From Sphingobium amiense (GTDB taxonomy: Bacteria; Pseudomonadota; Alphaproteobacteria; Sphingomonadales; Sphingomonadaceae), in assembly GCF_003967075.1 (NCBI RefSeq), contig NZ_AP018665.1, positions 148,397-212,396 on the forward strand: 64,000 nucleotides of DNA, in the 5' to 3' direction. The notes below the pieces were generated by a model, which saw only the letters and a list, made by a program, of their open reading frames with translations, made no database searches and was not told where the DNA came from. Positions 9,476 through 36,342 of the stretch are shown one piece after another; within the stretch, counting starts at the first letter, position 1, and each line of letters begins with the position of its first letter. The position numbers and the translations under genes are program-made.

Positions 9476-9570
9476 GATCGTCTCCTTATGGTGAGAAAAG
9501 TGCAGGCCCGCTGGCCGCACGCGCAGTGCCGGGCTCGTCGCCCGGCTGAACAAAATGGGAGGAAGATCCT

Positions 9571-10903: not shown

Positions 10904-10944
10904 GGGTGAGCTCCTGAAAAGAAGGTGGTCGGCCTCGCGCGAGA

Positions 10945-13755: not shown

Positions 13756-13878
13756 ACGAGGCGGCTCCCAATTTGCTCGGCCTGGGAAACTCAAACTGTC
13801 CCCGGGGGTTTGTCCGTCATACCTGCCCAGCGTCCGGCGTGGGCGGGTTCACCGACATGACCAGTGACAGGAGCTCCC

Positions 13879-16075
<2,197 letters not shown>

Positions 16076-16086
<11 letters not shown>

Positions 16087-17495: not shown

Positions 17496-18101
17496 CTAGA
17501 GACGGCTGGTGGCCTGCCCCGCGGTGAAGTCGGCGAGCCATTGCTCCATGGTCGGCCGTTCGCTCACCGGCACGAGCGCGGCCGCGTCCTGGAAGCGCAG
17601 CAGCTCGGTGGGAGCGGTCCGCAGGATCTCGCCGATCTCGGCCTCGGGCAGCAGCTGCTCGGCACGGATAAAGTCGGTGATCCGCCCCGGACGGGTTCGG
17701 GTAGAGCGCCGCCAGAGCCCCTCGACCGTATGGAGACGGGGGGCCGCACGCGCCTCGATGAGCACGATGAGGCGCAGGCACCAGGCCGGCAGGGCGCGGA
17801 CCTCGTCGGGCTTGATGGCGCCGCAGAAGAAGCAGGACGACTTGGGCGGGACCGGCAGGCCGGCTTGCGCAATCCGGGCCTCGCAGCGTGCGCGCGTCCA
17901 GCCCCAGTCGCGCAGCGGATAGCGGCACTCGAACAGCGGGTCGTCGATCCCGGCGGCATGGCGGTAACGGCGTGCGTCGGCGGGCGAGGCATCGTAGCCG
18001 ATCAGGCGCACGACCTTCCGGCCCGCCGCCCAGGCGGCCTTGGCCGGCGGCCATTGCTTGAGGAAGGCGTCCTGGGGCGCGACCTTCCATTTGAGGCTGC
18101 A
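17496..18101 (-). pseudogene. PAPS-reductase-like protein, C-terminal fragment
   Basis: The frame opens with CSLKWKVAPQDAFLK directly at the left end of the Tn554-like element and runs to 17496. It contains GYDASPADARRYRHA, FECRYPLRDWGW and a CXXC pair (SSCFFCGAIKP), as in DndC/PAPS-reductase-like adenosine-nucleotide proteins. The N-terminal part with the PP-loop is at 27290-27643. Joining the two at the shared GCTGCA restores 317 codons in one frame. Without the element this fragment has no natural start. Confidence 0.9.
18096..18101. repeat. Left 6-bp core (GCTGCA) of the Tn554-like element
   Basis: The same six bases flank the right end at 27290-27295. Just inside both ends is TTAGGTCT in inverted orientation (18102-18109 and 27282-27289). 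Confidence 0.85.
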
Positions 18102-18204: not shown

Positions 18205-18669
18205 TCAGGCAGTGGAGGGATCGGGCGCTTCGGCGTTGATGCGGATAGGGACGGGCAGGCGTATCCGATCGAGTTCCTGCACGAGTTGCGCGTTGCGGCG
18301 TTCAAGGCGCTCCGCGCGCTGTTCGGCCTCGAGGGCGCGCTTCAGCAGGCTGGCATTATGTGTTGCGAGGGCGATGTTCTTGGCTTCCACGTGCCGAAGA
18401 GCAGAGCGTGTGCGATCGGCATCGCCGGCGGCCATTTCAGTGGCGCCCTCACGTTGCGATTGAAGCTCGCGCAGGGCGTCAAGAACGTCGGCATGGTGCG
18501 TATAGATGATGTTGCGGCCGACCCCGGCTGCTCGTGCAAGAGCGGCGACCGTTGGCGCGGCGGACGGGTCTTTGGCAAGGACGCCAAGGGCTTCGCGCAG
18601 ACGTGCATTGGTGTTCGCCCGGCGACGGGCCTGCGGGGTGGATAGGTCAGATTCAGACGTCACCGGCAT
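18205..18669 (-). CDS. TnpC-like accessory transposition protein (DUF6262 type)
   Basis: A 154-residue protein: a basic helix-rich N terminus (ARRRANTNARLREALGVL), a helix-turn-helix-like part (TVAALARAAGVGRNIIYTHH) and a long coiled-coil C-terminal half. This is the layout of the small third protein of Tn554-family elements, which influences insertion frequency and orientation. It overlaps the end of the upstream recombinase. The GTG at 18663 is better spaced from GAAGGA than the ATG at 18669, so either could be used. Confidence 0.75.
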   Translation of the reverse strand: MPVTSESDLSTPQARRRANTNARLREALGVLAKDPSAAPTVAALARAAGVGRNIIYTHHADVLDALRELQSQREGATEMAAGDADRTRSALRHVEAKNIALATHNASLLKRALEAEQRAERLERRNAQLVQELDRIRLPVPIRINAEAPDPSTA

Positions 18670-20455
18670 TTCCTTCGTCGAGCTGGTCGAGGATACGGCG
18701 AGATTCCTGGATGCGGGCTTCGGCAAGTGCTCGGCTCTCGCGATCGAGGTCATCGCGCTGGATCAATGCGGTGTTTCGTTCAAGCCGCGCTTCCCAGACC
18801 GGCCTATGCCGGTCGGTCACGGCGAAGTTGGCGCAAGTCGAGCAGGTGCTTTGTGTGCGAAGCACCGGGTTCGGCTCGCGCTCGCCGCCGAGGCAAGCGG
18901 AGGTCTCCCGGCGGTAGAGGCAGTAGCCCCAGTCGCATACGCCGAGGCGCATATCCGTGCCGGCGAGGATCTCGGTGATATATCCATCGACGTCGCTCGA
19001 TAGCGTGCGCCCGCGGAACGGCGATCGCTCGGAGAGCATGACGCCCGCCTTCCCGGCGACGTTCGGCGCCAGGAGCAGGTCTTCCAGCGCCTTGCGGGTT
19101 TCTTCGGCGGCTTGGTCGTCGATCAGCTGGGCAAGCTCGAAGTCGGTGCCCACATAGGCCCGGTCGGTCATCGCGCGGTGGACATGGCCGAGATGGCGTT
19201 GCAGCGCCGTCAGGCCGGTGCGGTCGCGCCGCCCGATGAACCGTGAGAACGTCTTGCGACCCTGATAGGTGGTCAGGTGCCAGGTTCCGCCTTGGTGTTC
19301 CGGCAAGGCAAGGAACGGCGCAAGTCGTTCGTTCAAGCGGATATTGACCATGGGTGATCGCAGTCGAGCGACGGGCATCATCGTCGGAAGCGGCGAGCGT
19401 CCCCGGCCGAGCTGGTGGAGCCAGAGGTTCCTCTTCCCGCTAAGTTCGCGAAGCGGAGCGGAGAGACGTTCGAGGATGTGGATCGCCCGCTGGACCGGCT
19501 CGGGCGCGAGCCAGCGATGGACGTCCCCATGTTCCGTCAGCGACGTCTTCGTGATCGTGCCGACCAGATAGACGTGTTCCTCGCCGTCTCCGTCGGCCGC
19601 GCGCCGTTCGAGGCAACCCTCCTCAAGCCTGAGTATTTCGGAGGCTCTCGCGCCAACGAGATAGGCGATGACGACGAAGCAGGCGTCGCCAAGGCGATCG
19701 AGCATGAACGTCAGGCGGCGCAGCGGCCATTCCGGATTCGGATACAGATCCGCGTGGGGGCATGGCTCAGCCAACATGGCGCGTCTGATATGCCAGTGGA
19801 GCCTTCGCCCCTGATGCTGTTGTCGAAACTTCTCATACAGATCTTCGAGGCGATCGCGCAGCGCGAGTATCTGGTCCGCTGGGTCACCGAGCAGTTCCAT
19901 AGCGCCGCTGATGAGAGGCACGGCGATCTCGTCGGGCGTATAGGGATGGCCGCCATAAGGTTTCCAGTGCCGCTTCCCAACCGAACCGGCGCGAGGCGGC
20001 GCCATCAGCGGCGCGTCGTCCAGCTTGTCGCGCTGCATGTGGAACGTGCGGATCGTGCCGAGATAGCCTTCGGCGGTGCTGAGGGAGAGCCGTGAAGCGT
20101 TCCTGCCGGGACGGGCGCGCAACATGGCCACGAACCGGTCGACGGCGTCTTGATCGAGATCCTTGAAGCATCGGACGTTCTCGGCTGCCATCCATCGAAC
20201 GAGGAAGCGGATGTGGCTGAAGTGACCATCGACCGTTTCCTTGCGAAGTGGCATCCGCCCTTCGGGCGGATCGGCCCGCAGCGAGAACAGGAACAGTTCG
20301 GCGGCGTGCCGGAGCGGCGTCCACTGATCGTCCGTGAACCGGCTCCCGTCCGGCATTTCGAAGCCCCAGTTGAACGTCGTGGCGGCGGGGACGCCTTCGT
20401 TTCCGAGCAATGGCGCCGGAAGTTGGGTAGGCGTGGATGTCGGGACGGAGGCCAT
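18653..20455 (-). CDS. Tyrosine recombinase, third of the Tn554-like set
   Basis: A 600-residue protein. The catalytic half (about 300-470) shows VGARASEILRLEEG with the first Arg, HLTTYQGRKTFSRF in place of HxxR, and LGHVHRAMTDRAYVG with His and the Tyr nucleophile. A Cys-rich tail follows (CDWGYC, CSTCAN), probably a zinc-binding module typical of the large members of such trios. It ends overlapping the TnpC-like start and begins four bases after the previous gene, so all are one operon. Confidence 0.85.
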   Translation of the reverse strand: MASVPTSTPTQLPAPLLGNEGVPAATTFNWGFEMPDGSRFTDDQWTPLRHAAELFLFSLRADPPEGRMPLRKETVDGHFSHIRFLVRWMAAENVRCFKDLDQDAVDRFVAMLRARPGRNASRLSLSTAEGYLGTIRTFHMQRDKLDDAPLMAPPRAGSVGKRHWKPYGGHPYTPDEIAVPLISGAMELLGDPADQILALRDRLEDLYEKFRQQHQGRRLHWHIRRAMLAEPCPHADLYPNPEWPLRRLTFMLDRLGDACFVVIAYLVGARASEILRLEEGCLERRAADGDGEEHVYLVGTITKTSLTEHGDVHRWLAPEPVQRAIHILERLSAPLRELSGKRNLWLHQLGRGRSPLPTMMPVARLRSPMVNIRLNERLAPFLALPEHQGGTWHLTTYQGRKTFSRFIGRRDRTGLTALQRHLGHVHRAMTDRAYVGTDFELAQLIDDQAAEETRKALEDLLLAPNVAGKAGVMLSERSPFRGRTLSSDVDGYITEILAGTDMRLGVCDWGYCLYRRETSACLGGEREPNPVLRTQSTCSTCANFAVTDRHRPVWEARLERNTALIQRDDLDRESRALAEARIQESRRILDQLDEGNAGDV

Positions 20456-20459
20456 GAGG

Positions 20460-22277
20460 CTATTCCAGGTCCGGCAGCGGCGGCAAGGCGGGTATGTGCC
20501 GTTCCGCGTCCGGCATCATTTCGGGCGGGAACGCCGGCAGCAGGTCTTGTGTCAGCGCCCGAAGGCTGGGGGCATAGAAGAGGCTGAACCGGATCGGGTC
20601 GATGCGTTCCCGCGCCGCTTCAAGATGCATGGTGGCCTGGACAATGCGCGCCAGATGACCCGGGTCGATCGGGACGATTAGGCCTGGACAGGCAAGGCAG
20701 CCTCCCAGTTTCGGGCACACGCGGCCAGGCTGTGCCTGCCCGCCGTCGACCGGTCGAAGGCAGTCGTGGCCGAACAGCGCCGTCACCCGCGCGCTGGTAT
20801 CCGGCCCTTGATGTTGCGAGTCATGGGCGGGCGTCTCGCCGGTGACCCATGTGATCATCAGCGACTGGAGCCGAGCGATCGTATCGCGTTCGAGGCGGCG
20901 GACGGCCTCGCCATCGACATAGATGTCGGTGGTGGCGACATTCGCATGATTGAGGACCGCCTTGGCCGCCATGATATCGCCCTGCGACGCTGTGTAGTGG
21001 GCGCTTGCCATGCTGCTGCGGAACAGCTTGGGCGAGAAGTCGGGAAGCAAGGAACGGGACTTGCCCGGATGCGCATCGTTCCAGGAGGCGATCGCGCCAT
21101 TATGCCGTTCGTAGAAGCGCAACATTGCCGATCGCAACGTGGCCTGCACGATATGACCGGCGTGATGCTCGCGCTCGAGGCGTCCTGTCGTCATGAGGAA
21201 GCGGTGGAGGAACAGCCGGTCGCGTTTGGACGGCTCCACATGCGGTAATAGGGGCGCCGTCATCGCAAGGAGCTTTTCGATCAGGCGCGGCGCCGCATAG
21301 GGTCGGCGATTGTCGAACGAGCGCCGTTGCATGCGCTTCACCTTGCCGCCGGCACGAGGTTTCACCCACTCGACCATGACGCGATGCCGCTCGAGCGGAT
21401 GCGGCACGAGGCAGTCCCGCTTGATCTGGCGCAGCGGACCGGCGTTGGCCGCCGTCTGGATCAGCAGCACGATATAGAACGCAACCAGCGTGTCGGTCGT
21501 GAGGTGGAGATAACCCTCGAGCTCGCGGAACCCGCCTACCTCGGCGATCCTCTGCCGATCGGGCTTGTTAAGGTCCAAGCCTCGGTCGATCGGCATGATG
21601 CCGTGGCCGCGGCGATGGAGCTTCCAGATCCAGCGATCCCGTTCGGCGGTCCGCCCACTATGGAGCGGCACGTTCGGAAGATTGACGATGGTTTGCCCGT
21701 GCTGGAACTTGGCCCATGCCGTGTCGATCTCGGCATAGCAGACTGCCAGCAGGGCGCGCATTGCGGCTGGTGTCAGCCGGTCTTGCGGTAACCGCTGGAC
21801 GCCGGCGAGCGGGATCGGATTGTTGGGAACGGCGAAGCCCGGTGCGAACAAGCCTGGATTGTCCGCGATCGCGCGCTTGAGGACGGGCCGGATCATACCG
21901 AACTGACCGGATTGTGAGCGGACGCCACGCCTGCGCCCGTCAGTGGGCATCGCCAGCCAGGTGATGAACCGGCGGATCGTTGCCGTGTCGAGGTCTGCCG
22001 CGCGCCTGACACGCGCGTCTTCGCGCAGGAACCTACCGAACACGCGCATCGCGAACCAGCGCGCGGTGCGGGTCGCGACGCTGGATGCCATATCATGATC
22101 GCGGAAAGCCCGGGCGATGGCGGCGCTGATATCGTCCGGCAACCCGAACAGCGCCGGGTCGAAGCGTTGGACGATCTTGCCCCATTCGTCGCGGAACTGG
22201 ATCTCGACGACCTCCGCCGGATGGTTCGCCGGTGCCGGATCGAGTCTCAGCGTGCGATCGAGGCGGCCCCTAGCCAT
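20460..22277 (-). CDS. Tyrosine recombinase, TnpB-like
   Basis: A 605-residue protein. The recombinase core is recognisable by TAANAGPLRQIKRDCL, the SSMASAHYTASQGD block and AVLNHANVATTDIYVDGEAV (His and Tyr). Sequence around the first Arg is atypical, so catalytic competence is not certain. The C terminus has spaced cysteines (HDCLRP, GRVCPKLGGCLACPG). Its ATG overlaps the end of the first recombinase by eight bases. In Tn554, TnpA and TnpB both contribute recombinase activity. Confidence 0.8.
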   Translation of the reverse strand: MARGRLDRTLRLDPAPANHPAEVVEIQFRDEWGKIVQRFDPALFGLPDDISAAIARAFRDHDMASSVATRTARWFAMRVFGRFLREDARVRRAADLDTATIRRFITWLAMPTDGRRRGVRSQSGQFGMIRPVLKRAIADNPGLFAPGFAVPNNPIPLAGVQRLPQDRLTPAAMRALLAVCYAEIDTAWAKFQHGQTIVNLPNVPLHSGRTAERDRWIWKLHRRGHGIMPIDRGLDLNKPDRQRIAEVGGFRELEGYLHLTTDTLVAFYIVLLIQTAANAGPLRQIKRDCLVPHPLERHRVMVEWVKPRAGGKVKRMQRRSFDNRRPYAAPRLIEKLLAMTAPLLPHVEPSKRDRLFLHRFLMTTGRLEREHHAGHIVQATLRSAMLRFYERHNGAIASWNDAHPGKSRSLLPDFSPKLFRSSMASAHYTASQGDIMAAKAVLNHANVATTDIYVDGEAVRRLERDTIARLQSLMITWVTGETPAHDSQHQGPDTSARVTALFGHDCLRPVDGGQAQPGRVCPKLGGCLACPGLIVPIDPGHLARIVQATMHLEAARERIDPIRFSLFYAPSLRALTQDLLPAFPPEMMPDAERHIPALPPLPDLE

Positions 22278-23412
22278 CGGCGGGGATCAGCTCGCCATAA
22301 AGATAGGCGAGGCTTTCGCTCAGGTCGCGCTCGTGCAGCTCGACGCAGCGCAGATAAATCGCGGTGGTTGTGATCGAAGCATGGCCGAGCAGCACCTGCA
22401 CGACCTTGAGCGGGTTGAGATCGGGATTGGTGCGGGCCTGGATCTGAAGGCGGGCCAGCATCGCCATCGCGAAGGTGTGCCGCAGCCAGTGCAGCGTGCC
22501 CTGAAGTCCCGCGGCCGCGAACGCTTCCGCGAGCTGCGCCGTCAGGAGTTTTCGCGTCATGGCGCGGCCATGCTCGTTCAGCAGGAGATTAGGCGGCGCG
22601 CGATAGCCCCGGTCGGAACGGCGGATACCGCGGACGATCCGGGCGCGATCCTCGCCCGCATACCAGTGTGTATGATCAAGCAGCCGAAGCGGCGGATAGA
22701 CCGTCCTTGGCCGGTCGCCCTTGGTGATATGGAGCGGCACGCCGACAAGTGGATCGCTGTCGAGGTAGAGTGGCCAGCTATCCGGGATCTGGTCGAGGGC
22801 GAGCGCGCAAAGCTCCTTGCGACGCAGACCCGCCCCAAGCGCCCATTGCGCGGCAAGTCGGGCGGTAGGCCTCAGATGCGCGAACAGCCGTGCCAGTTCG
22901 TCGGCACGCAGCGGTCGCGGCAGTTTTTCCGGGCGTGAGACGATCAGCTCATTGACCTGGCGCCGCTGCAAGCCTGGGCGATAGGCGCCGTCGAGCATCA
23001 GCGTCATCTTCTCGGTCAACCGGAACGGGCAGTGGTCGATCAGCCCCTTATCGAGCGCCCAGCCATAGAAGCGGCAGACGGTCGAGACACGCGCATTGAT
23101 CGTGGTCCGGGCATAGGGCCGCCCGGTATGCGTGCTGGGATTCTCCAGCATCCGGTTGCGATAGGCGGCGATGACGCGTTCGTCGGCTTCGCGCCATTCG
23201 ATCCCCGATTGTTCGAGCGAGTCGAACCAGTCGTGGAGATGCTCGCCGTAGGTCCGCACGGTTTCGGAGGCGTGGGCACGGCCGCTTAGCTCTGCATGCT
23301 CCATGAGCCAGACGAAGGCCGGCTCGATGATCGCCATGTCGGCGTCGAACAGAATCGGGAAGCCAGCGGGGACATTGGGCACGCCAGAGGCAGCCCGAAT
23401 CACTGATACCAC
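22270..23412 (-). CDS. Tyrosine recombinase, TnpA-like
   Basis: A 380-residue integrase. There is a SAM-like N-terminal domain (TYGEHLHDWFDSLEQSG), then catalytic residues in LGAGLRRKELCAL, HWLRHTFAMAML and LLGHASITTTAIYLR. The length suits Tn554 TnpA (about 360). The frame is open back to 23568; I prefer the GTG at 23412, preceded by GAGGGAGATGGCCC, because residues upstream look unrelated. It is the first gene of the recombinase operon and diverges from the TIR cargo across about 200 bases, which must hold both promoters. Confidence 0.85.
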   Translation of the reverse strand: MVSVIRAASGVPNVPAGFPILFDADMAIIEPAFVWLMEHAELSGRAHASETVRTYGEHLHDWFDSLEQSGIEWREADERVIAAYRNRMLENPSTHTGRPYARTTINARVSTVCRFYGWALDKGLIDHCPFRLTEKMTLMLDGAYRPGLQRRQVNELIVSRPEKLPRPLRADELARLFAHLRPTARLAAQWALGAGLRRKELCALALDQIPDSWPLYLDSDPLVGVPLHITKGDRPRTVYPPLRLLDHTHWYAGEDRARIVRGIRRSDRGYRAPPNLLLNEHGRAMTRKLLTAQLAEAFAAAGLQGTLHWLRHTFAMAMLARLQIQARTNPDLNPLKVVQVLLGHASITTTAIYLRCVELHERDLSESLAYLYGELIPADG

Positions 23413-23615
23413 GGGCCATCTCCCTCGCCCGCACAGGTGCGATTTCGAAAGTAGCGCAACATGCTCGATTTGGCCGACGCATTTCGATGGAATGGGCGCT
23501 TTCCTCGCCATGCCGAAGGGTGTCGCTTCGACCAGCCTACCCCAAGCACTCACCGCGCCTGCTGACACCTGGCGTCCGCCTTGATATGAGTGGACGATGA
23601 TCGAGGGGGGAAGCG

Positions 23616-24104
23616 GTGGCGCGTCGGGTATTCTTTAGCTTTCACTATGACCGTGACGTTCGACGGGTCGTGCAAGTCCGCAATTCCTGGGTGGTTCGTC
23701 CAGGTGGCGAAGCGCAGCCTTTCTATGACAAGGCAGAGTTCGAAGAGGCAAAAAGACGCGCGGGCGGCATAGAAAAATGGATCGAAGAGCAGCTCAAAGG
23801 CACGTCCGTGACTGTGGTGCTGTTCGGCGCAGAGACGTATGATCGCGAATGGGTCCGGCACGAGATCAAGAGAAGTTACGAGCTTGGGAAAGGCCTATTG
23901 GCCATCGACATCCATAGCGTAAAAGATCCGCAACTTGGAACTGATCGACAGGGGACCAACCCTCTCAGTTATTTTACAATAAAGCAGAATGGCCGAGATA
24001 TTCCGCTGTCGAACCTATACGGGACATATGATTGGGTCCGGGATAACGGCTATGCCAACATGCCGGCTTGGATCGAAACTGCGGCAAAAGCGGCCGGTCG
24101 CTGA
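23616..24104 (+). CDS. ThsB-like TIR (DUF1863) protein 1
   Basis: A 162-residue single-domain protein that starts with GTG (ARRVFFSFHYDRDV) behind GAGGGGGAAGCG. It matches the DUF1863/ThsB subgroup of TIR folds: the opening FFSFHYD strand, KWIEEQLKGTSVTVVLFGAET and DREWVRHEIKRSYELGKG, where the Glu is the probable NADase residue. ThsB proteins sense phage and make a cyclic ADP-ribose signal in Thoeris defence. It is followed after five bases by a larger TIR gene and then a SLOG gene. A paralogue is at 26550-27047. Confidence 0.8.
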   Translation: MARRVFFSFHYDRDVRRVVQVRNSWVVRPGGEAQPFYDKAEFEEAKRRAGGIEKWIEEQLKGTSVTVVLFGAETYDREWVRHEIKRSYELGKGLLAIDIHSVKDPQLGTDRQGTNPLSYFTIKQNGRDIPLSNLYGTYDWVRDNGYANMPAWIETAAKAAGR

Positions 24105-24109
24105 CACCA

Positions 24110-25270
24110 ATGAGTATCTATGAACTGGCCATACTTGGTGCGGCAACGCCAGAGGAGCGTGCAACACTGACAGCGACGCTCACGGATATCGTTTCCGACT
24201 TCGGATTGACGTTGGGGGACGATGTAGTTGTGCATAATGCGGCAACGCTGGGTGAGCGGCACAAGCCAGCAGCATTCGCGTGTGCGTATTTTGGAGGAAA
24301 TGCCCAGCAAGATCTCGAAGCGGCCCAAGACCTGATCCGGGCCAGTGCGCCCATCATTCCAACGATTGCCGCTGGCGCAGACTTCAATGCTCACATCCCC
24401 CCGCTTCTCCAGCCCATCAATGGGCTAACGCGGCGCGCTGACGATCCAAATATGACTGAACTCGCGTCAGCAATGCTGGAATGCGTGGGCTTACTTCGTC
24501 GACAGCGACGGGTTTTTGTGAGCTATCGGCGCGTGGAATCCCGAGCAGCAGCGTTGCAACTTCACGATCTCCTTGCGTCCCGCGGATTCGACGTATTCTT
24601 GGACACGCACGACATTAGGCCCGGCGATCCGTTCCAAGATGTGCTTTGGCATAGGCTCGTCGATTCTGATGTTATGGTTATGCTCGACACGCCTACCTAT
24701 TTCGATAGCCGCTGGACTCGACAGGAAATAGGAAGGGCGCGCGCGAAAGAGATCCAGGTCCTTCGTGTAATTTGGCCTGAGCATACGCCAAACAAGCTGA
24801 CCGATCTTGCAGAGACTATATATCTTGATCCAGAGGAACTCGAGGGGCCAGATGGCCCAATAGTAGCCAAAACGGCGGATACAATCGTCCTGGAGGTCGA
24901 GCGGCTACGAAGCCGGAGCATCGCATCTCGATATATGTCGATTACCGGCAAACTCCGCGCTGACGTCGAGAAAATTGGTGCGTCAGTGGAAGGCGTCGGC
25001 GCACATCGGGCCGTCGCCGTGCGGTTGCTGGACGGCGAAAAGATCTGGGCATATCCGATCGTCGGAATCCCCACGGCTGAAATTTTGAACGATGTGGCCG
25101 ATAAGGCGCGACGAGCGGAACAGCAGGAGATACCGGTACTGGTCTACGATCATATCGGCATCCGTGATGCATGGAATGCTCATCTCCGATGGCTTGGGGA
25201 GCATATTCGCGCGGTCCGCACGATTAAAGTTTCCGAAGCCGGATGGGCTCTTGCGGCATGGGAGAACTGA
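24110..25270 (+). CDS. TIR-domain protein with extra N- and C-terminal domains
   Basis: A 386-residue protein. Residues 1 to about 130 form a Rossmann-like domain I do not recognise (YELAILGAATPEERATL). Residues about 135 to 260 are a canonical TIR (RVFVSYRRVESRAAALQL, FDVFLDTHDIRPGDPFQDVL, then SRWTRQEIGRARAKE with the candidate catalytic Glu). The last 110 residues are another alpha/beta region. It is most likely an NAD+-cleaving effector or signal synthase. It sits between a ThsB-like gene and a SLOG gene in a tight operon, so ligand signalling among them is the natural guess. Confidence 0.8.
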   Translation: MSIYELAILGAATPEERATLTATLTDIVSDFGLTLGDDVVVHNAATLGERHKPAAFACAYFGGNAQQDLEAAQDLIRASAPIIPTIAAGADFNAHIPPLLQPINGLTRRADDPNMTELASAMLECVGLLRRQRRVFVSYRRVESRAAALQLHDLLASRGFDVFLDTHDIRPGDPFQDVLWHRLVDSDVMVMLDTPTYFDSRWTRQEIGRARAKEIQVLRVIWPEHTPNKLTDLAETIYLDPEELEGPDGPIVAKTADTIVLEVERLRSRSIASRYMSITGKLRADVEKIGASVEGVGAHRAVAVRLLDGEKIWAYPIVGIPTAEILNDVADKARRAEQQEIPVLVYDHIGIRDAWNAHLRWLGEHIRAVRTIKVSEAGWALAAWEN

Positions 25271-25272
25271 CC

Positions 25273-25929
25273 ATGACTGAGGCCATTTTTCTTTCGGCAG
25301 GCGTGCCGGATCCGAAGCGAGGCCCACAATATGCGGCGACCGCTGACAGTGTCGCGATTACAGCCGCAGTCTCCGCTTTGGTGCACGTCACGCTAGGACG
25401 CAGGCTGCTTGTTTGGGGTGGTCAACCCGCAATAACACCAATGATCTGGGTGGTCTCGCAAGACATAGGAATAAATTACGGACACTGGGTCCGGCTCTAC
25501 CAGTCTCGCCATTTCAAGGACGAGTATCCCGAGGATAATGAGCGGTTCAACAACGTGGTTTATACGGACGAGATTGAGAAGGATCGGGAGAAGAGCTTGC
25601 TGGCCATGCGCGAGCGTATGTTTTCCGAACACAAGTTCAAAGCGGCAGTTTTCATTGGGGGTATGGGCGGGATTGTACAGGAATATGAAATGTTTCGACG
25701 CCTGCAACCGGACGCTGCAGTGATTCCAGTAGTCTCCACGGGCGGCGCGACGCTTGAAGTTGGGGCGCAGGTTGAATCTCTATCGCCCGACCTAGCGGAA
25801 GACCGGGACTATGTTGCGTTATTTCACCGCCACCTTGACGTTTCCGTCCGAGAGGAGCGCTTCGAAAGTCCAACTCTCCAACCGGATGTCGTTGAGAAGC
25901 GATTTTGGCAACCCCCTGCCACTGCTTAA
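25273..25929 (+). CDS. Stand-alone SLOG-domain protein
   Basis: A 218-residue protein starting at the ATG at 25273, three bases after the TIR stop. The SLOG signature is clear: AIFLSAGVPDP at the first strand, LLVWGGQPAITPMIW, and AVFIGGMGGIVQEYEMF with the Gly-rich turn and Glu. SLOG domains bind NAD-derived ligands; in ThsA of Thoeris the SLOG domain senses the cyclic ADP-ribose made by TIR proteins. Here there is no fused effector domain, so it may sequester or process the signal, or act through another protein of the locus. Confidence 0.8.
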   Translation: MTEAIFLSAGVPDPKRGPQYAATADSVAITAAVSALVHVTLGRRLLVWGGQPAITPMIWVVSQDIGINYGHWVRLYQSRHFKDEYPEDNERFNNVVYTDEIEKDREKSLLAMRERMFSEHKFKAAVFIGGMGGIVQEYEMFRRLQPDAAVIPVVSTGGATLEVGAQVESLSPDLAEDRDYVALFHRHLDVSVREERFESPTLQPDVVEKRFWQPPATA

Positions 25930-25945
25930 ACGGGACGGGAACTCG

Positions 25946-26500
25946 TTATTCACCAGCCAGCCACTCGCTAAGCTCGGTAGCTGTGTTCCTTTTCTCGTCG
26001 AGGACCATCCAGACGCGCTTTTGATGACCCTGTAGATCCCCCCAGACGATGCGGCGGTATAATCCCAGATACTCCCACGACGCCCATGCCTGCTCATGCG
26101 CGCTGTCGGATGCCGGGAACAGCGCGATCTTCGTCAACCCTTTATACCCATCCGCGACGCCCAACTCCCAGGGCACCCAACGACTGTCCTTGCTGTTCTT
26201 GCTTGCAAGAAGGACAAAGCGCTTGGTCTGACGAATACGGCTCTTTAACAGCCCTGCCGTTTCCTCCGTCGTGTATGGGGGCATTTCCGGGTCGATTTCA
26301 TCGACATAAACCTTGGCGCCGTGCCCTTCTAATACACGAATGGCGCCAACGACGAGATCATCGTCCTTGCTTGAGTGCGAAAGAAATGTAGCACCCGACA
26401 GCGCCCGAGAAGAAGCAGATTTCCTGAGGTTTACCTGCTCGTTGATGTTCAATTTGCCAGCGAAATTACGAAGCTCGGATTTGGTAATATATTCTATCAT
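25946..26500 (-). CDS. TIR-domain protein, 184 aa
   Basis: A 184-residue protein. A short N-terminal helix region (IEYITKSELRNFAGKL) precedes a TIR domain: ATFLSHSSKDDDLVVGA, AKVYVDEIDPEMPPYTTEE and SRWVPWELGVADGYKG with the candidate catalytic Glu. It is on the opposite strand to the first three cargo genes and converges on the SLOG gene, with only 16 bases between the stops. No strong ribosome site is visible. It may be a second effector or part of an independent module with 26550-27047. Confidence 0.8.
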   Translation of the reverse strand: MIEYITKSELRNFAGKLNINEQVNLRKSASSRALSGATFLSHSSKDDDLVVGAIRVLEGHGAKVYVDEIDPEMPPYTTEETAGLLKSRIRQTKRFVLLASKNSKDSRWVPWELGVADGYKGLTKIALFPASDSAHEQAWASWEYLGLYRRIVWGDLQGHQKRVWMVLDEKRNTATELSEWLAGE

Positions 26501-26549
26501 TCTTGCCGCCCGCTCTTAATTCCGCGCAAAATCTCCGATTCTCTGCACT

Positions 26550-27047
26550 TCAGTTATTTGCTCGGATCGCAATGGCCTCTTCAATCCAAGTCTCGATCCC
26601 ATTCTTAATCGAGTCATAGGCGGCTTTGCTATCTGCTCCGGAAGGAGAGACGAGCTTCACTATGGACGAAAGCTTCTTCCCTGTATTGGCGTAGCCTATT
26701 TCATCAAATGGATTGCTGCCTGCCACGCACGAGTTCCCATCGTGACCAAGAAGTTTGTTTATCCGGATACCCACCACGCCTTTGCCTGCGTCCCAACCTT
26801 TGACGATCTCGCGGATCACCCATGGCCGGTTCGCTGTTTCCGAACCGACGAGCACCACCACGCAACTCTTGCCGTACATGTTGTCATCGATCCATTTTTC
26901 GATGGAGGCTTTGCCCTTCCGCTTGACCTCCTCCCAAGCATTCGCAGTGCAAAGAGTCTGCCCTTCGAGGGCTCCGATGTTACGCACCTGCTGAGTACGC
27001 CAAAAATCGTTCGCGAAGTGAAAACTGAAGAAAACGCGCCGCGCCAT
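26550..27047 (-). CDS. ThsB-like TIR (DUF1863) protein 2
   Basis: A 165-residue protein that begins MARRVFFSFHFANDFWRT, closely like the N terminus of 23616-24104, then diverges. It keeps KWIDDNMYGKSCVVVLVGSE and NRPWVIREIVKGWDAGKG with the Glu of the TIR active site. It is a divergent paralogue on the other strand, so the cargo is roughly symmetrical, with a ThsB-like gene at each outer end. It precedes 25946-26500 by 49 bases and probably shares its transcript. Confidence 0.8.
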   Translation of the reverse strand: MARRVFFSFHFANDFWRTQQVRNIGALEGQTLCTANAWEEVKRKGKASIEKWIDDNMYGKSCVVVLVGSETANRPWVIREIVKGWDAGKGVVGIRINKLLGHDGNSCVAGSNPFDEIGYANTGKKLSSIVKLVSPSGADSKAAYDSIKNGIETWIEEAIAIRANN

Positions 27048-27289: not shown

Positions 27290-27295
27290 GCTGCA
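27290..27295. repeat. Right 6-bp core (GCTGCA) of the Tn554-like element
   Basis: The direct-orientation partner of 18096-18101. Confidence 0.85.
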
Positions 27296-27643
27296 ACTAT
27301 GCCGTCCCAGGCTGATGCTCGGCAAAGTCGCATTGGTCAGGACATTGGCGAGGATCGAATAATAGGGCGGCCAGTGCTTGAAGCGCCTGGGCACGTAGCG
27401 GACGATCTCATAGGGAATCCCGCGCGCGTGCATCCACGCGGCGATCATCCGCTGATATTCGTAGGTCTCGGGCTTCTCCGCGCCCGGATCGGCGCTCAGC
27501 ACCAGGTCTGGCGCCTCGCCGCGCGCCTCGAGTTCGATCAGCAGCGCCGTGGAATCGACACCGATCCCATAGGCCAGGACCACGGGCGGCGGGGCGGCGA
27601 CCAGAATGGTATCGACCGCTCGTCTGTTGCTTGGGATGTGCAT
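27290..27643 (-). pseudogene. PAPS-reductase-like protein, N-terminal fragment
   Basis: The ATG at 27643 opens a 118-codon host segment ending RHSCS at the element boundary; the frame then runs on into the element to 27074. Residues 24 to 33 (AYGIGVDST) are the PP-loop that binds adenosine nucleotides, and SADPGAEKPETYEYQ is the typical second block. Residues needed for catalysis are in the other half at 17496-18101. It follows the Mom-like gene by 56 bases, so it was probably the next gene of that operon. Confidence 0.9.
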
Positions 27644-27699
27644 GGAGTTCTCGGCCTCGATCGCGGCCCATCGCCGCAACCCTCAAGATCCCCCTCCCC

Positions 27700-30596: not shown

Positions 30597-31355
30597 TCAA
30601 GCAGCGATCGGTAGCGGGATCGGCACGGCCTGCCCGGTGGCGATATTGATGAACGCGCCCGCGTGGCCGATCGATCCGCGGCCAACGAGATCGAAGAGAA
30701 GGGCCAGCGCGTGGCTCGCCACCACCCGGTTCACGAAAAGCGACTGGCGCTCGAGGGCTTCGGCCATCGAGCACGACGGCGCGTCGTCGTCAGGCAGGCT
30801 CTCGTTCGCGACCTCGGGGAAATATTCGAGGACTGTCGGGAGGATCTGGTGCCCGGCCTCGGGCTCAGCGTTCGGGCAACCGATGATATATTGCCCGTCG
30901 CCAGCGCGGTTGCCGAGATCCAGCCAATAGGCCGGCGCATTCCTGGCCGAGGCGATGGCCGCACCGACGCTCCGGCGCGCCGATGCGGTATCGACACAAG
31001 TGATGACGATGTCGGTGCCGTCGAGCTTCGCGGCCTCGGGTGCCCGGCCATGCACCGCCGTCCAGGCCAGACCGTGGGCGAGATTGATCCGCTCGGTTAA
31101 CGTCCGGGCCTTCGAGTTGCCGATGTCGCACCTGAAGAAGGGCTGCCGGCCAAGATTGGCCTCGCTGACGATATCGTCGTCGACGACGGTTACATCGAGC
31201 GAACGCGACGAAATCGCCCGCAGCGCCGTATCCAGCGAGGCGAGCCCCATCAGCATCTGCGCGCCGTTGCCGCCGCATCCCACAAGCACGATTTTGATCG
31301 CGCGGTTGCCGAGCGCCGCAGGCAGATAGTGGCGAAGGGGCGTCTCAGAGGTCAT
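30597..31355 (-). CDS. PRTRC ThiF-family (E1-like) protein
   Basis: A 252-residue E1-like protein. VLVGCGGNGAQ (residues 23-33) is the nucleotide-binding loop, VTVVDDDIVSEANLGRQPF holds the Asp and Arg that contact ATP, and VITCVDTASARR provides the later strand. E1-like proteins adenylate the C terminus of ubiquitin-like partners. It is the last gene of the PRTRC cassette; its ATG overlaps the stop of PRTRC A by four bases. The expected partner is the PRTRC C protein (34006-34212), whose tail is GTKG rather than a diglycine. Confidence 0.9.
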   Translation of the reverse strand: MTSETPLRHYLPAALGNRAIKIVLVGCGGNGAQMLMGLASLDTALRAISSRSLDVTVVDDDIVSEANLGRQPFFRCDIGNSKARTLTERINLAHGLAWTAVHGRAPEAAKLDGTDIVITCVDTASARRSVGAAIASARNAPAYWLDLGNRAGDGQYIIGCPNAEPEAGHQILPTVLEYFPEVANESLPDDDAPSCSMAEALERQSLFVNRVVASHALALLFDLVGRGSIGHAGAFINIATGQAVPIPLPIAA

Positions 31356-32005
31356 GATCGTCTCCTGAAAAAAGGGCTTCGCGGCAGCGGGAGGAACATC
31401 CCTCCGGCGCACAGTCGCGAGGCAAATGCGGGGCCGTCCGTATGACCCAGACGTCCGACAACCAGGGCGATCTTGGTCGCGTGCGCGTCGTCCGCGTCGT
31501 CGGTTGCGCTGAAGAAGGCCGCGCCGTGCCCATGGCTGTGAATGTCGCAGATGAGGTGATGGTGCGGCGGCAGCGCAGGCGGACGATAAGTGAGGTGTGA
31601 CGGCGTCGCGCGGTCGATCTGGGGGAAGTCGACCCAGAATCGCCGATTAGCCTCATCCCAGAGGATGAAGGCGGCGGCCTCGTTGGGCAGCGCGGCGCGA
31701 AAGTGCTCGAGGACTTGCCGCAGCAGCTCCGCCGGTATCAAGCCGCAACGCAGGTCCGCGCGGCGAACTCCAATGCTCCCGTAGGGCAGGTAGGCCGGGA
31801 TCGGCGGTGTCACGGGCAGATCCAGAGCCAGCCAGGCCCGGCGCAAGATCAGGCAGACACCATCGCGGCCGATTGCGAGGCAGCTGCCTGCTCGGGCTTC
31901 GCGAACGGCCTCGATCGCGGGTGATCGCCCATCCGGCGGCACGGGATAGCAAGGCGCCTCCGCCAGTACCGCGGCGGCGGTCGGGTCTTCGGCGAGGGCA
32001 GTCAT
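31352..32005 (-). CDS. PRTRC system protein A, JAB/MPN peptidase-like
   Basis: A 217-residue protein with a JAB/MPN+ site: HSHG at 156-159, Ser 166 and Asp 169-170 (FFSATDD), and a candidate Glu at 109 (LPNEAAAF). This is the zinc-dependent isopeptidase pattern used to cut ubiquitin-like tags. The N-terminal 90 residues are specific to PRTRC A. It overlaps both neighbours by four bases, so B, A and ThiF are likely made together. The metal site appears complete, so it may be active. Confidence 0.9.
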   Translation of the reverse strand: MTALAEDPTAAAVLAEAPCYPVPPDGRSPAIEAVREARAGSCLAIGRDGVCLILRRAWLALDLPVTPPIPAYLPYGSIGVRRADLRCGLIPAELLRQVLEHFRAALPNEAAAFILWDEANRRFWVDFPQIDRATPSHLTYRPPALPPHHHLICDIHSHGHGAAFFSATDDADDAHATKIALVVGRLGHTDGPAFASRLCAGGMFLPLPRSPFFRRRS

Positions 32006-32832
32006 CGGCCGGACCTTCCGTAGATGAGGTCGCCGAGCGTCACTGGGTCGGCCTTGGCGGCGCCTCGCGGGGCGGTCTGGCGACGATCTCCGAGGAACGG
32101 CCTCAAGCGTTTGACCGGGAAGCGGGTCGCGCGGGTCGCTGCGAGGGTGTCCCAGAGACGCACGAGACCGCCCTTCCCCGTGATCGTCAGCTCCTGACCC
32201 GGATTCGGATGGGTCGACCAGGAGTCGAAAAGCGCGCGCTCGAACTCGGGAATGGCGGACACATCCAGCGATGTCGGCTTCGGAATGTTACCCCAGCAGA
32301 GGGAACCGTTGAGGAAGACGTTGAGGATCGGCGAATGAAGCAAGGCGGTTTCGGCCGCGGGCCGCTCGTTCCGCTCAAGCGCAAAGACTCCAAGCCGGCG
32401 CCGTGTGGCGACAAGGACGTGTGCCGGATAGGCAACCGGGACGATCGCGCGGCCGCCAAGCGCACGCAGTCCAGCCAGTTTCGCCGAGAGGTCGAAATAG
32501 GCCGTCCTCACCTGTGCGGGCACCCACCAGACCAGCAGGTCGGGATGGGCGACAAGCACCGTTTCGGGGAGAATTTGCGGCGGGGCGACGCGGCCGAGCG
32601 CCTGCGACCAATGCCGCAGATGCGCCCGGGTCAAAGGCGTTCCAGCGGCGATGGTCGGCGCGCCGATAGCGTCGTGCTCGATCTGATGGATGCTGGCGAA
32701 TGCCTCGGCATCTTCGCCAGGGGTAAGATGCGAGCCGAGGCCGCGAGCCCCGTCGCTTCTGTAGAGCAGGATGGCGTTGGTCAGCATCATGCCGCCTGCG
32801 GTTCGCTCGAACTGCACGCAATGGTCAGTCAT
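32002..32832 (-). CDS. PRTRC system protein B, E2-like
   Basis: A 276-residue PRTRC B protein. The family is classed as an E2-like fold. Here Cys179 in NVFLNGSLCWGNIPKP is the conserved candidate for the thioester-forming Cys. The N-terminal half begins MTDHCVQFERTAGGMML and includes LVWWVPAQVRTAYF. The ATG at 32832 was chosen because the longer frame adds residues from the overlapping end of F. It is followed by the JAB-like A gene through a four-base overlap. Confidence 0.85.
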   Translation of the reverse strand: MTDHCVQFERTAGGMMLTNAILLYRSDGARGLGSHLTPGEDAEAFASIHQIEHDAIGAPTIAAGTPLTRAHLRHWSQALGRVAPPQILPETVLVAHPDLLVWWVPAQVRTAYFDLSAKLAGLRALGGRAIVPVAYPAHVLVATRRRLGVFALERNERPAAETALLHSPILNVFLNGSLCWGNIPKPTSLDVSAIPEFERALFDSWSTHPNPGQELTITGKGGLVRLWDTLAATRATRFPVKRLRPFLGDRRQTAPRGAAKADPVTLGDLIYGRSGR

Positions 32833-32842
32833 GTCGGCCTCG

Positions 32843-33838
32843 TTATTCGGGAGGATAGAGTTCGATGAGATGTTTGGCGGCCCGCAGCAGCCGCGCGCCG
32901 GCGGCGAGTGACGCATGCCAGACATCGATCGCGGTGGAGTGCGTCATTGGGCAAAGGCCCGTCACGTCCATGAAACCATATTCCATGCCGTGACGCCCGA
33001 CGTCGTCGACCTCGACCGCGAACTGTTCGACGGGAACGAGTGTCAGCGGCGGAAGCGGCGAACATTCCTCGATACCGGGGACATATTCGTAGAGAACATC
33101 CATCTCGAGGCGCCAGGCGTGATGTTCGTCAGGCAAATTGGTGAGCGCCGCGTGGGCATCCCGCAATTCGCGCAGAGCCCGACGAAGGGCAGTCGGTAAC
33201 TTCGACGTGGGCGCTGCCCTCGCGGCGAGCATCCATTCTGGCCGCCTGGCGTTCATTTCGGACGGCATGGTCTGGGCCGCGATCTCGCTGTCGTCAGCCC
33301 CATGGAGCGCAACGAGGGCCTCGCGCGCAGCGGCGTCCTCGGTCTCGCCGTCCCAATAGTACATCGAGATGTTGTCGAAGAGGTCATCGTAGCAGAAGAT
33401 CGGGAGAGCACTTCCGAGCGTGCGCTCGAGCACCCGATACGCAGCCGCGCGCCACGGGATCGGCCGCTTGCTGTCCTCGATCCATCCGAGATCGAGCTGC
33501 CCGACACTGTCGCAGACGATCGCGACCGCCGGCGCCCCGCAGGATTCGCCGTTGAGCACGACGACGCGCAGGTCCGCGATCGTGCAGCTCCGCAAGCTTT
33601 CGAGGACCTCGGTCTGGAAGACCCGTTCGATATGTCGGCGCGCCTCAGGGCGCGTGCGGTGCACTGTCTCCTGCTCTTTCGAGGCGACCCAACTGCCGAC
33701 GAGCTTATGGTGGGCCGCCAAAGGTCGATCGAACATCACCGGAATATCAGGGGAGATATGGACGGTCCGTCCTGCCAGATCAGCCGAGCGGAGGAAGGGA
33801 GAGTCCTGTGGGTGGCGGGATAGGATCGGCAGGACCAT
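32843..33838 (-). CDS. PRTRC system protein F
   Basis: A 331-residue protein placed where PRTRC F is always found, between C and B. It has DLRVVVLNGESCGAPA, LGWIEDSKRPIPWR, IFCYDDLFDNISMYYW and a C-terminal block with Trp and aromatic residues. No known fold or active site is apparent and the family has no assigned role. The start is uncertain: the ATG at 33838 overlaps the small ORF 33780-34004, and a shorter start inside the frame is possible. Confidence 0.8.
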   Translation of the reverse strand: MVLPILSRHPQDSPFLRSADLAGRTVHISPDIPVMFDRPLAAHHKLVGSWVASKEQETVHRTRPEARRHIERVFQTEVLESLRSCTIADLRVVVLNGESCGAPAVAIVCDSVGQLDLGWIEDSKRPIPWRAAAYRVLERTLGSALPIFCYDDLFDNISMYYWDGETEDAAAREALVALHGADDSEIAAQTMPSEMNARRPEWMLAARAAPTSKLPTALRRALRELRDAHAALTNLPDEHHAWRLEMDVLYEYVPGIEECSPLPPLTLVPVEQFAVEVDDVGRHGMEYGFMDVTGLCPMTHSTAIDVWHASLAAGARLLRAAKHLIELYPPE

Positions 33839-34004
33839 CCTCGCGCGTGCCCGCGTCGAGGATGATCTTCGCATGGAGGGCCTGGGCTTGTTTGCTGCAA
33901 GCAGGCCGGGAGAGTTCGGAAGTGTTGCCATGGTCGTTCTCGATCCAATGGAGCAGCGTGCAGCGCGGTGCGGCGGGGATGGCCGCCATTTGAACGCGCG
34001 CCAT
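33780..34004 (-). CDS. Small protein between PRTRC C and F, possible
   Basis: A 74-residue frame whose ATG lies one base after the PRTRC C stop, so it would be tightly coupled. The sequence is not shadow-like: MARVQMAAIPAAPRCTLLHW, then ENDHGNTSELSRPACSKQAQ and a helix. The end overlaps the assigned start of F by 59 bases, which argues either for a later F start or against this gene. It may be an extra cassette member. Family unknown. Confidence 0.45.
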   Translation of the reverse strand: MARVQMAAIPAAPRCTLLHWIENDHGNTSELSRPACSKQAQALHAKIILDAGTREDGPADPIPPPTGLSLPPLG

Positions 34005-34005
34005 G

Positions 34006-34212
34006 TCAGCCCTTGGTGCCGACAGCTCGGCGATATTCGGTGACGTGGACACCGCCAGTAACCCCGGCATCGACCAGGTCGGCATTGAGGATCGCCGGGT
34101 AGAGGGTGGCGTGGTAGGCGCGCAGCCCCTGCGGGTCATTGGCAAGGTGCGGCGGCTGCGGGAGGTCGATACCGTCATAGCGGTAGACGCGGGCAAGATG
34201 GTCGATCTGCAT
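34006..34212 (-). CDS. PRTRC system protein C, ubiquitin-like
   Basis: A 68-residue protein with the beta-grasp pattern of PRTRC C: MQIDHLARVYRYDGIDLP, then HATLYPAILNAD and a last strand VTEYRRAVGTKG. The C-terminal GTKG is the family ending. If it is conjugated like ubiquitin, the last Gly is the carboxyl that ThiF would activate. AAGGACATTCCG precedes the ATG. It sits between E and F in the usual order. Conjugation in this system has not, to my knowledge, been shown. Confidence 0.9.
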   Translation of the reverse strand: MQIDHLARVYRYDGIDLPQPPHLANDPQGLRAYHATLYPAILNADLVDAGVTGGVHVTEYRRAVGTKG

Positions 34213-34257
34213 CGGAATGTCCTTGTTGGAATTGCAAAGGGTGTCGGTTGCTTCCGA

Positions 34258-34689
34258 TCACCAGAGGCTGGCGGGCTCCTCCGATTTTGCATCGGCCGGC
34301 AGGGCGCCCGCCGCTGGCGCGGCCGGCGTGCTCGCTGCGACTACCGGCTTGGCGGGTGCCGATGCCGCCTTTGCCTTCGCCGCCTCCGCAGACGCCGCGC
34401 GCGCGGCCTCGGCCGCGTCCCGCTGGGTCGCGATCTGATCGGCAAGCGCCATGCGTGTGGCAATCAGCCCACCGAGCGCCCCCTCGGCGCCCTTCGCAAG
34501 CTCTGCATCGATCTCGGCGGCCGTCGCTGTGATCGAGATCGGACGCAGCTCGCCGGCCTCGGCCTTGTGCGTTTTGCCTTCGGCGACGCGGGGAATGATG
34601 ATGAGGGTAACGACACCGTCATCGCCGGCGACAAGATCGAAGGCGAGCGAATAGCTGCCCAGCATGGGCAGAAGATTGGTGATCAGCAT
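34258..34689 (-). CDS. PRTRC system protein E
   Basis: A 143-residue protein. Residues 1 to 80 are a compact domain (LITNLLPMLGSYSLAFDLVA, then LIIIPRVAEGKTH and ISITATAAEIDAEL). A long Ala/Lys/Pro tail from residue 85 is low-complexity and likely flexible. It follows ParB by 33 bases and precedes C by 45, the standard PRTRC order. Function unknown. Confidence 0.85.
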   Translation of the reverse strand: MLITNLLPMLGSYSLAFDLVAGDDGVVTLIIIPRVAEGKTHKAEAGELRPISITATAAEIDAELAKGAEGALGGLIATRMALADQIATQRDAAEAARAASAEAAKAKAASAPAKPVVAASTPAAPAAGALPADAKSEEPASLW

Positions 34690-34722
34690 TGTGGGATTCC
34701 TTGATTGGAAAGTTGGGCGAGG

Positions 34723-36342
34723 TCAGGCGGCCAGTTCGGTGACAACCTCGTCGGCCTTGGCGGGCGGAAGCGAATTGGGCGGCGCATAGCGGCCATCGAG
34801 GGCCATCGCGCTTGGCACCCGGCCAGCCCAATCGAACCCGACAGCATTCAACATGCCGGAGATCAGGTCGCCCTTCTTGGCGCCGAGCAACTTTGCGAAT
34901 GCCTTCTCGCCCATGTGCGCGACCAGGCCGCTCTCGGCGGCAATGAACTTGAGCTCGTCCTTCGTGTATCGTTCGAGAAAAGCGCGATCGACCTGCCAGA
35001 CTGTCCGGATGTCGATGCCGAAGGCGCCGGCGAGATCGGCGACGTGCGCGAACGACTGGACGTCCCGGGCATATGCTGCCCCGATCGCAGCCAGCACCGT
35101 GGTGGCCTGAACCTCCGATAGCTCGCGGATCTCTGCGATCTTTTCCTTGAAACCGCGATCGGGGAACGCGGCGTCGACCAGCAGTGCAGCGCGCGAGGTC
35201 AAAGTGCCTGACTTGATGTGCGAAAGCGTGCCGGTCAGCGCTGCCACGAGGATCGCCGCCTGGGCGTTCAAAGGATCGTCGGCCAGCCCGCGGGCGAGCG
35301 CCGTGCGCCATGTCGCCTCCCGCAGGTCGGTCGTGCGGCCTGCGATGGACTTTGCGGTAACACTGGGCCCGGTGCTGGTGGAAACCTTGCGCACGACGGT
35401 TCCGCGACCGACCAGAGGTGCTGAAGGCGCTGCGTCATCGGTCAGACCGCCGATCTCACCGCCGTCCTCGTTTTCGTCGCCATCGTCGGCGAGAGCGTCA
35501 TCATCGCCGTCATCGTGTTCGATCGCTGCGGCGGCGTCCTCGGCCTCGGCGGCCGCCTCCGCATCACGGCGTGCAGCTTCGACCGCCTCGGTCTTTAGCT
35601 GGAAGCAGGTAGCGTTGGTGCAGTGGCCATCGTCGACATGGGTGTCGAACAGGGCGCGCTGCGTCCCTGAATTGAACGGACAGGTGGTGCATTCCGTTTT
35701 GTCGAACAGGGCATCGGCGAGGCGCTGCGTGACCTTCATGAGAAGATCGCGGGTCTTTGCGATGTCAAGGCCGGCCGCGATGATCGTCTCGAGCGCCTTG
35801 TCCTGCTTGTCGGCGGGAACGGCGGCGAGCAATTCGGCGTGTCCGACCTTGATCCGGCGCTCGTCGAGCGCGGTTTTGACGGTCTCGGAAAGGTCGGCGA
35901 GCGCGAGCCGGCGGTCCAGCTTTGCGCGGGACCAGCCAAGCCGCCGTGCAGCTTCAGCCCGGTCGCCTTGGCACGCCGCGAGATAGCGAACGGCCGCGTC
36001 CGCCTGCTCGGTCTCGGAAGGATCATCGCGATCGTCGTTTTCGGCAATCGCCGCGTCGAGCGCCTCCTGGTCGGTCATCTCCCGGATCAGGACCGGCACC
36101 TCGGCGTTTTCGCCGAAGGCTTCCATTGCGGCCCGGTAGCGGCGACCGCCCGCGACGATCGTGAAATGCTCCGGCAGGTCGGCAGCGGGCCGAACCAGCA
36201 TCGGCTGCAGCATGCCTCGCAAACGCAGGGAGGCGACGAGTTCGTCATGCTTCTTCCGGTCGAAATAGCGGCGCGGATTATAGCCCACGGCAATCCGGGC
36301 GAGCGGGACCATGGCGGTCCCGACAGGGTGCGATGCGGTCAA
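34723..36342 (-). CDS. parB: PRTRC-type ParB-family protein
   Basis: A 539-residue ParB/Srx-domain protein. The N-terminal nuclease-like domain has YNPRRYFDRKKHDELVASL and IVAGGRRYRAAMEAF (the CTP-binding GERR-like motif). A helix-turn-helix follows (GDRAEAARRLGWSRAKLDRR). There is a Cys cluster near residue 220-245 (CTTCPF, HCTNATC), then an acidic linker (DDGDDDALADDGDENEDGG) and a helical C-terminal domain. The start codon appears to be TTG at 36342 with AGGAG; the ATG at 36312 is the alternative. It heads the PRTRC operon. No ParA is seen nearby. Confidence 0.9.
   Translation of the reverse strand: MTASHPVGTAMVPLARIAVGYNPRRYFDRKKHDELVASLRLRGMLQPMLVRPAADLPEHFTIVAGGRRYRAAMEAFGENAEVPVLIREMTDQEALDAAIAENDDRDDPSETEQADAAVRYLAACQGDRAEAARRLGWSRAKLDRRLALADLSETVKTALDERRIKVGHAELLAAVPADKQDKALETIIAAGLDIAKTRDLLMKVTQRLADALFDKTECTTCPFNSGTQRALFDTHVDDGHCTNATCFQLKTEAVEAARRDAEAAAEAEDAAAAIEHDDGDDDALADDGDENEDGGEIGGLTDDAAPSAPLVGRGTVVRKVSTSTGPSVTAKSIAGRTTDLREATWRTALARGLADDPLNAQAAILVAALTGTLSHIKSGTLTSRAALLVDAAFPDRGFKEKIAEIRELSEVQATTVLAAIGAAYARDVQSFAHVADLAGAFGIDIRTVWQVDRAFLERYTKDELKFIAAESGLVAHMGEKAFAKLLGAKKGDLISGMLNAVGFDWAGRVPSAMALDGRYAPPNSLPPAKADEVVTELAA

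Follow-up and report, generated by a model that had tools for sequence, protein, structure and literature searches.

Five genes in the window, here the whole 64,000-nucleotide stretch of Sphingobium amiense DNA that was analysed (contig NZ_AP018665.1, positions 148,397 to 212,396), form a Thoeris type III locus, as judged by the family models for ThcA, a lone SLOG protein, and ThcB4, a TIR protein of 386 residues. In related loci, the ThcB4-ThcA pair is an inherited unit, around which the short TIR genes change. The constancy and common divergence of the pair, as opposed to the variable short TIRs, are new as far as checked. The five genes are carried by a mobile element with three tyrosine recombinases (Table 1).

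Assignment to Thoeris type III

Both families were named by curated NCBIfam models (release 20.0, June 2026). ThcA reaches 263 bits with NF058525, for a cut-off of 110 (1.2e-78), and ThcB4 497 bits with NF058526, for a cut-off of 220 (2.8e-149; residues 4-379 of 386). An initial annotation, made from the sequence alone, had described the five genes as a new, Thoeris-like arrangement mobilised by a Tn554-like element. The Thoeris type and a recombinase element as carrier are borne out; the novelty claim falls, because ThcA and ThcB4 both have names already in the NCBIfam models for Thoeris type III. These two genes hence match a described defence type, and a "new defence type" is ruled out. The domains on both sides of the TIR of ThcB4, first given as unassigned, are covered by its model. 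The name Thoeris type III is used in PMC12390725, which, at that place in its text, cites Costa et al. 2025 (reference 69, doi 10.1016/j.chom.2025.06.010) just before it. The name ThcB4 would fit the presence of four TIRs; the NCBIfam accessions neighbouring the two models, tried for ThcB1-3, turned out to be unrelated families. None of the short TIRs (TIR-a, TIR-c and TIR-d) matched an NCBIfam model at E ≤ 1, and PADLOC labels all four TIRs ThsB. TIR-a and TIR-d are ThsB-type TIRs by their PF08937 and 6lhy/9b7d matches, in agreement with the two ThsB-like TIRs of the initial annotation.

The layout holds on re-check, with three plus-strand genes converging on two minus-strand TIR genes. The plus-strand genes are as tightly packed as first described, but the gaps are of 5 bases (TIR-a/ThcB4) and 2 bases (ThcB4/ThcA) rather than 3-5; ThcA and TIR-c are convergent, 16 bases apart. 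ThcB4 is composed of an N-terminal alpha/beta domain (~1-125), the TIR (~130-240), a helix (253-288) and a C-terminal alpha/beta domain (292-386), and residues 19-188 of ThcA are SLOG cluster 3 (PF18180). The candidate catalytic Glu, already proposed for all four TIRs, is seen at the catalytic position in each of them (WVRHEI, WTRQEI, WVPWEL and WVIREI), as well as in 49/49 aligned short-TIR rows (19 loci) and 25/25 aligned ThcB4 rows. An automatic pattern for this residue gave no result for L024, L025, L030, L031, L037, L042, L044 and L048 and was misplaced in L043 and L049. A loss of the Glu in ThcB4 of the patatin-bearing loci was ruled out, as the alignment, inspected by eye, has it in all 25.

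The predicted fold of ThcA aligns best with the SLOG domain of ThsA, ThsA chains being the top structural rows. Foldseek alone gave no matches for ThcA at E ≤ 0.001 and a mixture of Rossmann folds and TIRs for ThcB4. For the N- and C-terminal domains of ThcB4, which the VIA comparison barely covered, no named fold emerged, and the query P0250 had no match among the PDB sequences.

In line with Thoeris type III, the locus has ThcA and ThcB4 above the curated cut-offs, with several TIR genes adjoining; its own features are the two TIRs on the opposite strand and the recombinase element. Type I (ThsA, SIR2-SLOG, with ThsB) shares the relatives of ThsB, and the ThcA model is nearest to the SLOG of its ThsA. 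Here, however, the SLOG is without a fused SIR2, and there is an extra TIR protein flanked by a domain on each side; the domain profile scan gave no SIR2 family match in ThcA or among the five proteins. Types II (transmembrane-macro ThsA) and IV (caspase-like) likewise have TIR signal makers, but the Pfam, NCBIfam and PADLOC scans gave no match to a macro or caspase-like family for the five proteins.

A constant pair with changing short TIRs

The same five-gene order is kept in eight of ten near-identical contigs (L002-L011), labelled Sphingomonas, Sphingobium, Novosphingobium, Rhizorhabdus, Sphingopyxis and, for one, a Microbacterium metagenome-assembled genome. The set thus recurs elsewhere, and, given this recurrence and the domain E-values, it is not due to chance. 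In L009, one of the eight, TIR-d lies ~0.9 kb further off; the two exceptions are L006, with ThcB4 split in two pieces, and L008, which ends before TIR-d.

In a wider sample, ThcB4 immediately precedes ThcA, both genes having the same orientation, in 39/39 stretches and 24/24 groups at 90% identity. This count is limited to fetched stretches whose ThcA has at least 180 aa (shorter SLOG matches, two of them in L044, were excluded), and L006 is counted as paired despite its split gene. The 39 stretches represent at most 36 distinct places (L007/L059, L010/L061 and L037/L042 appear to be duplicates); near-identical loci were merged before counting groups, and the short duplicate loci L015-L023 were left out. 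The homologues listed were 120 of 1345 ThcA, 120 of 1548 ThcB4 and 120 of 127 distant-clade matches, part of which were aligned (69 rows in A1, 41 in A2). Among five distant pairs, ThcA is above the curated cut-off in four (below, at 38 bits, in G069/L036), and ThcB4 in all three scanned (L032, L035 and L036).

The short TIRs, on the contrary, vary between loci in number, strand and descent. One to four of them lie within 7 kb of the pair in 18/24 groups. In the other six (L032-L036 and L039), none was found by TIR profiles, which missed some annotated TIR genes elsewhere (for example, a single gene in each of L038, L047 and L048). Three of these six are Magnetococcales: L032 (18.0 kb) and L034 (14.4 kb), with no short TIR found, and L033, which is only 6 kb long. 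Pairwise identities of ThcA correlate with those of ThcB4 at r = 0.946 (276 pairs), compared with r = 0.478 for the ThsB-like TIRs (136 pairs) and r = 0.335 for the TIR-c type (66 pairs), where the choice of one paralogue per locus lowers the values. Constant pairing and correlated divergence therefore define ThcB4-ThcA as the inherited unit.

Other modules stand beside the pair in related loci. A fusion of SLOG cluster 2 and patatin is present in 6/25 loci (L024, L025, L030, L031, L044 and L048). On the E. coli plasmid NZ_CP034659 (L024:2467-4083), this is a 538-aa protein adjoining ThcB4-ThcA, with SLOG cluster 2 at 108-169 (1.2e-7) and patatin at 231-417 (1.1e-28); several records annotate such proteins, from the patatin part, as CBASS cGAMP-activated phospholipase. 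A module of TIR, Nmad2, MazG C-terminal domain (MazG_C) and uracil-DNA glycosylase (UDG) recurs in 5/25 loci (L012, L037, L041, L043 and L044) and is seen beside the pair at L012:3184-6161; no PADLOC model matched its Nmad2, MazG_C and UDG proteins. Furthermore, both Sulfitobacter plasmids encode after ThcA a 463-aa protein (L043:8708-10099 and L049 ~9560-10945; 58% identity) with a DUF4062 match below cut-off (0.0059), and a 1082-aa NACHT/FGE-sulfatase/ParA-like protein directly follows the distant pair of L036 (6749-9994).

A predicted relay and its alternatives

The reading favoured here, at a probability of about 0.5, is a relay from the short TIRs through ThcA to the NADase of ThcB4. The inference builds on short TIRs that resemble ThsB, a SLOG fold like that of ThsA, the constancy of the pair and an element that holds no other candidate effector gene. 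The three short TIRs, by their relatedness to ThsB, are the putative sensors and synthases: they would detect the phage and synthesise a signal resembling cyclic ADP-ribose. ThcA, predicted to be a receptor rather than an enzyme, would bind this signal and then act on its partner ThcB4 by switching on its NADase. ThcB4, the predicted effector, would destroy NAD+ and kill by its loss, and the locus would protect against phage. Some points weigh against this relay: related loci add other likely effectors (SLOG-patatin in 6/25, TIR/Nmad2/MazG_C/UDG in 5/25), and ThcA could instead be a LOG-type enzyme.

A broader version can be put forward only tentatively. ThcA-ThcB4 might be a mobile module, complete in itself, of receptor and executioner: a "split ThsA" whose SLOG receptor acts in trans on the NADase of a TIR protein. 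TIR enzymes would then stand both before and after a single second messenger. The short TIRs would be interchangeable phage sensors, extra effectors (SLOG-patatin, Nmad2/MazG/UDG, HET) would be added to the module, and in Magnetococcales the two genes would by themselves make up a whole immune system.

Were ThcA itself the effector, it would be a SLOG enzyme of the LOG type, triggered to cleave an N-glycosidic bond of NAD+ or of some other nucleotide; the four TIRs would all be signal makers, ThcB4 being the one dedicated to ThcA. This is rather unlikely, as the best structural rows are ThsA chains, whose SLOG residues R371 and E403 bind ligand, and such a residue pair is no proof of catalysis. 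It is more doubtful still that the locus of the sphingomonads is incomplete, with ThcA-ThcB4 as a mere signal amplifier or regulator and the true effector missing or elsewhere. The patatin fusion of the enterobacterial loci could be such an effector, and other accessory modules occur in more loci. The five-gene set is whole, however, in the eight near-identical contigs, and no patatin turned up in the window; a search of the own genome for STALD SLOG proteins also found none, a weak result with equally silent controls. An off-switch role, in which ThcA would break down or buffer what the TIRs produce and so restrain their NADases, is improbable: SLOG domains have been proposed, in a statement of PMC9503650, to include processors of ADP-ribose derivatives, but ThcA is closely co-inherited with one TIR only (ThcB4), and its fold is nearest to a signal receptor.

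The carrier element and its distribution

The element is bounded by 8-bp inverted ends and a 6-bp flanking repeat (6-bp core), and interrupts a host gene. For the latter, the label "PAPS-reductase-like" was rejected, as no model supports it.

Table 1. Features of the locus and its carrier (window positions).
Feature	Position	Strand	Evidence
TIR-a, ThsB-like short TIR, 162 aa	23616..24104	+	ThsB_TIR (PF08937) 1.6e-25; PADLOC ThsB PDLC00431 8.5e-64; 6lhy 2.5e-27
ThcB4 (TIR-b), 386 aa, central TIR	24110..25270	+	TIR_2 1.4e-17; NCBIfam NF058526
ThcA, lone SLOG cluster 3 protein, 218 aa	25273..25929	+	PF18180 1.2e-81; NCBIfam NF058525
TIR-c, short TIR, 184 aa	25946..26500	-	TIR_2 5.2e-9; PADLOC ThsB PDLC00436 1.2e-85; PDB 8btn 2.3e-21
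TIR-d, ThsB-like short TIR, 165 aa	26550..27047	-	ThsB_TIR (PF08937) 7.9e-24; PADLOC PDLC00433 9.7e-71; 6lhy 7.7e-19
Whole mobile element, 9188 bp, ends TTAGGTCT...AGACCTAA	18102..27289	.	Homology breaks, junction comparison
Left 6-bp flank GCTGCA, direct repeat	18096..18101	.	
Right 6-bp flank GCTGCA, direct repeat	27290..27295	.	
Tyrosine recombinase A, 432 aa as open reading frame	22270..23568	-	PF00589 1.2e-11
Tyrosine recombinase B, 605 aa	20460..22277	-	phrog_1 integrase 1.5e-7; Phage_integrase 0.003, below curated cut-off; annotated recombinase in several relatives
Tyrosine recombinase C, 600 aa	18653..20455	-	phrog_216 integrase 2e-6; Phage_integrase 0.026, below cut-off
Small gene, fourth in the recombinase operon, 182 aa, like GinD/TnpC only in its position	18205..18753	-	Weak TetR_N 0.0043 and DUF6262 0.02, both below cut-off
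Interrupted host gene, 5' part	27290..27679	-	Junction comparison; no Pfam or NCBIfam match
Interrupted host gene, 3' part	17496..18101	-	Junction comparison; no Pfam or NCBIfam match

All 16 other stretches (14 places) that have these recombinases and a readable left end show the same flank there (TTCCATTT or TTCCACTT). L005 is cut at this point, the flank differs in L062 and L063, whose recombinases are divergent, and the left-end motif was not found in L006 and L027. The true start of recombinase A may lie near 23411-23425; matching to five elements in other surroundings ends at 23411 (L026), 23364 (L027), 22814 (L028) and 23425 (L029 and L060).

Relatives of recombinase B are 86-93% identical in four plasmids and 92% in genome G1013, and related recombinases adjoin other cargo. 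On plasmid pLA4 of Novosphingobium pentaromativorans (L026:4834-7742), the trio adjoins a short Argonaute with a SMEK/REase-type partner, though the right end was not found; RND efflux genes occupy the cargo slot in L027, and in L060 the neighbours are a 346-aa protein and an S41 peptidase. L029, with ends 5.8 kb apart, has little or nothing as cargo. Beyond the Argonaute cargo, pLA4 carries PRTRC genes; PRTRC system genes (ThiF, A, B, ParB) likewise lie near the present element (window 30597-36342, minus strand). The window also encodes a large catalase (13864-16086; best model HPII, 931 bits, below the model cut-off of 1102). A decayed second copy of the element exists in the same genome, on contig C3 (L064:3640-12687), with TIR-d whole, TIR-c cut and the centre replaced by open reading frames resembling, by eye, insertion-sequence genes.

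The initial annotation had called the carrier Tn554-like. Tn554 has two tyrosine recombinases plus TnpC (tnpABC) and a short core at the junction. The label is partly right, given the three tyrosine recombinases with their small fourth gene, the inverted ends and the 6-bp core; adjacent tyrosine recombinases and a short junction core are shared with Tn554 and RIT elements. The gene set, however, is closer to ginABCD. No NCBIfam model of TnpA, TnpB or TnpC matched the element proteins, the Tn554 sequences themselves being outside this comparison. The four recombinase-operon genes fit GInts better than Tn554, although the cargo position differs. As described by Bardaji et al. 2017 (PMC5385486), GInt islands have consecutive genes for three tyrosine recombinases and, fourth, a small protein; they insert site-specifically, with a 6-nt core, and their cargo, which follows ginD, is varied, the direct imperfect repeats being 10-17 nt long. 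Here, by contrast with that account, the cargo lies upstream of recombinase A and the flanking repeat is of 6 bp. The likeness is one of gene content, with weak profile matches for recombinases B and C.

With the own genome counted in each case, ThcA is above cut-off in 7 of 398 genomes sampled from the phylum, where 8 give a match at E ≤ 0.001, and in 2 of 385 from the class; recombinase B is found at E ≤ 1e-150 in 7/397 genomes of the family. ThcA matches 28 of 72,556 plasmid records and none of 50,697 phage records; IMG/VR yielded no confirmed relative with patterns from one sequence only.

In the open literature, no paper was found that states how a type III SLOG protein acts, by killing or by signalling, when no effector is fused to it. 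Co-inheritance singles out one pair, ThcA with ThcB4, and thereby makes the question testable with two genes. Moreover, the loci show immune parts, the short TIRs and the added effectors, varying around this constant pair.

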